NCBI GenBank assembly: GCA_039096225.1
Contig: JBBPEB010000015.1
Coordinates: 1,575,501 to 1,639,500, forward strand
Reading direction: 5' to 3'
DNA from: Blastocystis sp. Blastoise
Taxonomy: Eukaryota; Sar; Bigyra; Opalinata; Blastocystidae
Length of the DNA: 64,000 nucleotides
The notes under the pieces were generated by a model. It did not search any database and was not told where the DNA came from. It worked only from the letters and a program-made list of their open reading frames with translations. The position numbers and the translations under genes are program-made. Shown one piece after another: positions 22,549-23,725 of the stretch (the first letter of the stretch is position 1; every line of letters starts with the position of its first letter).

Positions 22549-23725
22549 TTAGCTTCTTGTGTTATACATTTGTATTTTCTTTGTTAAATCTACTTGCTCA
22601 ATTCGATCAGGTAAAAATAAAGCCATCAACATTAAAAACTCATATCGAGTTATATATCCATCTTTTGTATGCTATTTAAATAATTATATATATATATGAT
22701 TATAATTATATTATTAATATAATTCTAAATATGTAATTCTTAATATAATTCTTAATATATACATCTATTAAAGAAAGACAAGAATTCATTAAACCTTTAT
22801 CTTTTGATGGTTGAAGATAATGACATATATGTATTGCATCTGATGATGAAATATATGAACATTTTGTACTATTTATAGATACATAACACTATATAATAAT
22901 AATAATAATAATAATAATAATAATAATAATAATAATAATAATAATAATAATAATAATAATAATAATAATAATAATAATAATAATAATAATAATAATAATA
23001 ATAATAATAATAATAATAATAATAATAATAATAATAATAATAATAATAATAAAATCAAATACTTGTTCTAATTCTTCTTTTATTCCTTTTGGTAAATTAT
23101 AATAAGCAATAAATCCTTCAACATACATATTAAAAGAATTTATATGTAAACAGAAAATATTAAGAATATACATAAATTAAAATAAAATAAAAATAATATA
23201 AACTTAAACTATACTAAATTAAAATTAAAAAAATAAAAAATATATATAAGATTCAAATAATGAAAGGATATCTAATCCATTTAATTCATCAACACAAAAT
23301 GTTATAAATTGATTTCTTGTTATTTTATAATCTTCTGTAGCATCAAATACATCAAATGTTTCTCTTAAATACATTAAAGACCAATCTACAGCCAAAAAAC
23401 GACCTAAAAATAATTATATATATATATAATTATGAAATCAAATGAATATTAATAAAGTAAAACAACAGAAGACAATTTTAAAAAGATAATAAATACCAAA
23501 AGTCATAGTGTGTTCTAAAGTACATTTGTCATCACCCATATTGAACACATTAAAAACATCGTTCATACGAATTTCCATTCGTAATTCTTTTACAGCTTGA
23601 AAGTAATTTGCTTGTTCATTTTGATTACCATATCGTTTCCAAATATAATAAGCTCTATCTTGTATATACTTTACTCGAATTGGAATATCGAGTATATTTG
23701 TTATAGAATCCGCAGGACAACTCAT
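22549..23725 (-). CDS. EF-hand-like calcium-binding-family protein
   Basis: Five exons (23725-23497, 23403-23272, 23145-23063, 22888-22763, 22671-22549) give 230 residues. Helix-loop-helix units are visible: FDVFDATEDYKITRNQFITF, LSLIDHTKDGYITRYEFLML, and weaker ones around FNVFNMGDDKCTLEHTM and CYVSINSTKCSYISSSDAI. Only the last loop (DHTKDGYITRYE) keeps most canonical calcium ligands, so several EF-hands may be non-binding. Intron 2 (23146-23271) has no GT or AG and works only as an AT-AC intron. Intron 3 is a long AAT repeat. Confidence 0.72.
22889..23062 (-). repeat. (AAT)n intron
   Basis: Intron 3 of the EF-hand gene consists of about 160 bp of perfect AAT (ATT on the coding strand) between a GTATTTG donor and an ATATAG acceptor. 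Confidence 0.9.
23146..23271 (-). other. U12-type AT-AC intron in the EF-hand gene
   Basis: On the coding strand the intron starts ATATCCTTTC immediately after GGA-TTA-G and ends TTTAC before AT-ATA-AAT-TCT. ATTCTTAAT (23167-23159) places the branch-like A 14 nt from the acceptor. The unspliced frame hits TAA, and no GT donor or usable AG acceptor exists at these exon ends. Splicing gives ...NGLDINSFNMYVEGF. Confidence 0.85.

Follow-up and report, generated by a model that had tools for sequence, protein, structure and literature searches.

What removes the segment at 23146..23271, which interrupts an EF-hand gene on the minus strand of a 64,000-nucleotide stretch (the window) of the AT-rich genome of the gut protist Blastocystis sp. 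Blastoise? It begins with AT and ends with AC. The reading frame of the gene, the splice signals and the content of the genome suggest that it is a U12-type AT-AC intron excised by a minor spliceosome of this organism, and we put the probability of this reading, which rests on sequence analysis, at about 93%.

The intron is the second of the four in the gene. Its minus-strand sequence runs from 23271 to 23146 as ATATCCTTTC ... TATTCTTAATATTTTCTGTTTAC and finishes with TTTAC (Table 1). The donor, ATATCCTTT, which we take to be the U12 AT-AC consensus, fits the U12-type donor pattern ATATCCTT. Branch sites of U12-type introns resemble TCCTTAAC and lie some 10-16 nt before the intron ends, and the motif TTCTTAAT, two positions off that consensus, is of this kind in both sequence and distance. 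In U12-type introns the interval from branch to 3' end lacks a polypyrimidine tract; the stretch found here, TATTTTCTGTTTAC, is T-rich in a genome that is T-rich likewise (window GC about 0.2). The first, third and fourth introns have GT-AG borders (93, 174 and 91 nt), and the one at 22889-23062 consists mainly of an ATT trinucleotide repeat.

Table 1. Positions in the window of the EF-hand gene, the signals of its second intron and the further AT-AC candidates.
Feature	Position	Strand	Basis or remark
Exon 1 of EF-hand gene	23497..23725	-	spliced frame
Exon 2, ends ...DELNGLD	23272..23403	-	spliced frame
Exon 3, goes on (D)INSFNMYVEGF	23063..23145	-	spliced frame and homologue
Exon 4 of EF-hand gene	22763..22888	-	spliced frame
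Exon 5 with stop codon	22549..22671	-	end derived from 230-aa length
Predicted U12-type AT-AC intron of EF-hand gene	23146..23271	-	126 nt, phase 1
Donor ATATCCTTT	23263..23271	-	identical to the presumed U12 AT-AC consensus
Branch-like motif TTCTTAAT	23159..23166	-	branch A at 23160, 14 nt from intron end
Second predicted AT-AC intron, phase 0, 5'-nucleotidase (NT5C) gene	43616..43698	+	Pfam match crosses junction; strong
Third predicted AT-AC intron, phase 0	39298..39398	-	spliced frame open on both sides; good
Fourth AT-AC candidate, phase 1	45030..45120	-	spliced frame open just 17 codons upstream; weaker
Fifth, weakest AT-AC candidate	18187..18423	+	poorer branch-like TTCTTTCAT; unspliced frame open as well

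Joining the five exons yields a protein of 230 aa with an EF-hand match of 31.6 bits (cut-off 25) at residues 184-207, on the exons downstream of the AT-AC intron. Among the frame-keeping introns of at least 25 nt that could connect exon 2 to exon 3, none is bounded by GT-AG or GC-AG; the enumeration gives 2 GT-AC and 14 AT-AG pairs, which were counted and not listed, and 22 AT-AC pairs. Both GLD and MYVEGF are retained by three of these 22, two of which insert residues; 23271-23146 alone inserts none and is collinear with a homologue. A GT-AG intron with different borders would resemble the other three of the gene, and we give it next to no chance since no pair of that type keeps the frame. 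An AC or AG end with no in-frame GT-AG alternative is expected of a U12-type intron. Protein searches with the EF-hand protein led to two matches. One, P0002, a protein prediction from an ENA contig of 1718 nt, has 89 identities in 189 columns (47%) and a single gap away from the junction, where its NELNGLDIQLFNYMVEGF and the DELNGLDINSFNMYVEGF of the EF-hand protein are collinear across the splice. It departs and terminates exactly at the position of the fourth intron of the EF-hand gene, and may there read into an intron too. The other, P0001, is GenBank WA158_001297 of Blastocystis sp. Blastoise itself, which runs into the AT-AC intron, stops there at 135 aa and is without about 108 of the 230 residues of the spliced protein. 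If that annotation were right, the protein would end inside the segment and the remainder would be a separate or dead gene; this is highly improbable given that P0002 carries on through the junction and that the downstream exons are open and hold the EF-hand match. The deposited annotation missed the AT-AC intron and its gene model is truncated. Other genes of the genome that carry such introns may therefore be misread as well. The preliminary description of the locus had given the intron with these exact borders, donor, branch, branch distance and TTTAC end, and had stated that no GT/AG pair joins the exons, that the unspliced frame stops and that splicing restores a continuous EF-hand protein; the enumeration, the 135-aa deposited model and the collinear 230-aa protein bear it out in full.

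An AT-AC intron might also be removed by the major spliceosome, as are the rare U2-type AT-AC introns of animals. Such removal would agree with the GT-AG borders of the remaining introns of the EF-hand gene and with an altered donor-binding segment in U6atac, described below. However, the usual donors of U2-type AT-AC introns are ATAAGT-like, and the donor and branch found here fit the U12 signature, as do those of three more candidates in the window. The pairing bases of the minor snRNAs are also kept: the U11 5' end AUAAAGGG, which we take to be the donor-pairing stretch, and the U12 GAGUAAGGAA, presumably the branch-pairing stretch, are conserved, and U11 and the donors retain mutual complementarity. 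Conservation of these bases is common to the human and plant minor system, whose AT-AC introns share with the Blastoise one the donor ATATCCTTT, a branch near the end and an AC acceptor. We consider U2-type removal very unlikely and privilege excision by the minor spliceosome. Following what is established for that machinery, U11 would pair with CCUUU of the donor and U12 with the branch, the U4atac/U6atac.U5 particle would then join, U6atac would replace U11 at the donor, although three bases of its normal donor-pairing segment are changed, and the exons would be ligated.

The window contains ATATCCTTT seven times, about 3.5 being expected at the mean rate of the genome. Coupled to a U12-like branch and AC it is found four times, compared with none in the reversed or complemented window and a mean of 0.16 (maximum 2) in 100 dinucleotide shuffles, a comparison that is descriptive and not a test, the pattern having been drawn up after the sites were seen. 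In the NT5C gene the profile match (54.8 bits) extends from residue 4 to residue 121 of the spliced product, and the junction follows residue 96; the alignment to a solved relative also spans the junction, with a four-residue gap adjoining it. An inner intron of this gene, at about 43470-43545 (plus strand), has no GT-AG or GC-AG pair that keeps the frame; AT-AC and AT-AG pairs do, those listed being without an ATATCC donor, and it is a non-consensus intron or a sequence error. The gene with the 45120 candidate resembles, by eye, importin alpha, and about 17 codons upstream of the donor (about 45137-45200, minus strand) the likely coding frame passes into another phase through an apparent frame shift or sequence error. 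In all, four or five AT-AC candidates lie in the window and differ in strength, those at 23271 and 43616 being strong. All five that the preliminary description had listed exist, with 45120 and 18187 weak. Elsewhere in the window, two long ORFs between 1342 and 8727 appear on inspection to belong to mobile elements, the first (1342-6114) resembling a Helitron-type helicase and the second (6499-8727) a reverse transcriptase. Minus-strand ORFs at 48171-51375 resemble, again by eye, a gene for pyruvate phosphate dikinase or PEP synthase. The polyadenylation motif of Blastocystis, TGTTTGTT, is not clearly enriched: the window has 13 copies of it and 9 of the reversed word.

Outside the window we inspected the first 30 loci listed for ATATCCTTT, a non-random sample lying entirely on contigs C1 and C2 and comprising 32 sites, 30 of them distinct. 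Branch and AC follow the donor at 6 of the 32, compared with 7.7% of random positions. By eye about two of the six show a coherent coding junction and four are unconvincing. One of the six lies inside an MFS transporter domain, whose match continues across the junction (30.9 bits, just under the cut-off of 33.4), and a second looks coding by eye. Genome-wide, ATATCCTTT occurs 1802 times and the reversed word 1266 times. Markov models of orders 1 to 4, built on a 191-kb sample, give expectations of 1587, 2211, 1855 and 1316 for ATATCCTTT, and of 1442, 2439, 2075 and 1651 for the reversed word, the latter above the observed count at every order. Given these expectations, the apparent surplus of about 536 cannot be relied on as an estimate, and the donor 9-mer count gives no robust genome-wide number of AT-AC introns. 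The high density of such introns claimed earlier holds for the window; with the ATATCCTTT count inside the Markov range, it is not established for the genome.

Searches of the genome reveal genes for the minor-spliceosome components. The U6atac gene (C21:544821-544937, 63.8 bits, Rfam cut-off 33) matches the model RF00619 over its full length, with GAGAGAAGGUUAGCA conserved and a T-run end. U11 (C4:1684165-1684293, 62.9 bits, cut-off 39) is on the same contig as the window, about 45 kb past its end. The U12 match (C24:844725-844868) is full-length and scores 46.8 bits, below the cut-off of 53, with a promoter element 58 nt upstream. For U4atac the genome gives no match at E 0.001, and at E up to 10 the sole candidate is C8:151033-151167 (29.7 bits, cut-off 53), a score that alone proves nothing because 11 of 14 control genomes also give matches at that cut-off; an Rfam scan of the promoter-element locus on C8 at E up to 0.05 does not list U4atac. 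The candidate has the promoter element 61 nt upstream, and its beginning, UUCGUCCUUAUCG, is complementary to CGAUAAGGACGAG of U6atac along 13 bp, the expected stem, with 12 Watson-Crick pairs and one G-U pair. Promoter element and pairing make this weak-scoring U4atac a well-supported prediction. A pattern written from the expected U6atac complement missed this candidate, which has GCTGAC and not GCTAAC; the two matches to that pattern were rejected as coding-like by eye. Among the proteins, U11/U12-25K (SNRNP25) is recognised by its Ubiquitin_4 domain, a Pfam family that we take to stand for 25K, with 45.9 bits from genomic frames (cut-off 22.8) and 59.1 bits once one intron is removed by eye. 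An Rfam scan of the window at gathering scores has no matches, the snRNA genes found lying elsewhere. U6atac (about 544.9 kb) and U6 (about 551.6 kb) are about 6.6 kb apart on one strand of C21. The presence of U11, U12, U4atac, U6atac and 25K genes supports the view that the lineage keeps a minor spliceosome, as the preliminary description had deduced for the four snRNAs while proposing a search for minor-spliceosome proteins.

The element ACTTCTAATCAARATGT, allowing up to two mismatches, is located 58-65 nt upstream of U1, U2, U4, U11, U12, U4atac and U6atac. Its presence at U11, U12 and U6atac is circular because it was written from those three. At the same stringency it is found at 56 places in the genome, against 25 for the reversed word; three are the U11, U12 and U6atac genes, 40 were scanned with Rfam and 13 were left unscanned, five of which were read by eye. 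The scanned places include two U2, two U1 and one U4 gene, each 59-60 nt downstream of the element, as well as one tRNA and one chance-level bacterial family. Also among the 40 is the element at C8:151212-151228, 61 nt downstream of which a separate search then placed the U4atac candidate; about 0.00002 same-strand matches within 10 nt of that spacing are expected by chance (56 places, 66.7 million strand positions). Judged by its positions, ACTTCTAATCAARATGT is a predicted promoter element shared by snRNA genes. U6 has, by eye, its core ACTTCTAATCA upstream. Within about 5-12 nt of their 3' ends, U1, U2 and U12 are followed by ATTAATTTAATTTT, and U11 and U4 are followed by variants of it; after U6atac, which ends in a T-run, it is absent. 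It looks like a 3' box for the first set of genes, and the T-run like a Pol III end. One further U2 copy is probably a pseudogene: its promoter element is near-intact, but the copy is truncated, giving way to unrelated sequence after about 35 nt.

The unexpected part, and the point most worth following, is U6atac. Its start GUGUACGUUGAGCCGAGAGAAGG aligns gaplessly to the RF00619 consensus start GUGUUGUAUGAAAGGAGAGAAGG and differs at positions 5-8 and 12-14. At the latter, A12 A13 G14 of the consensus are G12 C13 C14 in Blastoise, and the donor-binding segment reads GAGCCGA instead of GAAAGGA, with two central mismatches to UCCUUUC. Facing the donor AUAUCCUUUC it pairs at +4, +5, +8 (wobble), +9 and +10 and leaves C6 and U7 unpaired; the complementarity to donor UCCUUU of a canonical U6atac is broken at +6 and +7. 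The best calculated duplex, which may differ from the natural register, is weaker than that of the consensus U6atac for all five donors, in one case marginally (-7.2 versus -7.3 kcal/mol). A compensating donor, ATATCGGY, is not enriched genome-wide (552 places versus 931 for the reversed word). A search for GAGAGAAGGTTAGCA with up to two mismatches gives 12 places in the genome (49 for the reversed control): the known gene, which is exact, one U6, and ten that by eye have no U6atac context; no second U6atac copy emerges from it. A search of viral and prokaryote contigs for U6atac-like sequences of relatives gave no matches. Available passages of the literature on the Blastocystis minor spliceosome contain no Blastocystis U6atac sequence, nor did those found mention an altered U6atac in the genus. 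That this U6atac gene is a relic is improbable, since the promoter element, the full-length match, the T-run end and the complementary U4atac are all present. Tentatively, and at somewhat less than even odds, we propose that in this Blastocystis lineage U6atac lost the conserved donor-binding bases while the donors stay ATATCCTTT. The choice of donor would then fall to U11 and proteins, and U6atac would dock through a different contact or a broken helix, in which it pairs with the donor only at +4/+5 and +8 to +10.

A count of U12-type introns in Blastocystis ST1 has been made in a study that we take to be that of Larue and Roy 2023. The portion of that study available gives 253 such introns, 77% of them AT-AC, and describes rapid turnover between Blastocystis genomes (PMC10639083). 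The ST1 genome paper, in the parts available, reports that 346 of about 35,000 introns are U12-type and that these lie in 319 genes, together with all four minor snRNAs and all seven specific proteins, and finds introns and components also in ST7 (Gentekaki et al. 2017, PMC5608401). Since minor introns are reported in ST1 and ST7, those of Blastoise are expected: the genus is already known for U12-type introns and their machinery, and the 346 introns of ST1 reduce the surprise value of the preliminary description (PMC5608401). The U12-type introns of these relatives have mostly AT-AC borders and all four minor snRNAs are found there (PMC5608401), as in Blastoise. In ST1 over half of the introns are 30 bp (PMC5608401), whereas the AT-AC intron of the EF-hand gene measures 126 nt and its other introns 91-174 nt. 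A literature search for the strain name Blastoise together with Blastocystis returned nothing. U6atac is described as pairing with the donor and displacing U11 in the available parts of two reviews (PMC3584512, PMC8199999).

Minor introns persist in a Blastocystis whose introns, in the EF-hand gene at least, exceed the 30-bp peak of ST1 about three- to sixfold. Base pairing of U6atac is reportedly required for activating U12-type donors, going by the title of a 1998 study by Incorvaia and Padgett. If the proposed loss of the donor-binding bases is true, it runs against the rule that U6atac pairing is needed to activate these donors. A genome whose one recognisable U6atac gene is mismatched to the donors, next to seemingly intact U4atac, U11 and U12, would offer a natural experiment on the need for U6atac-donor pairing.
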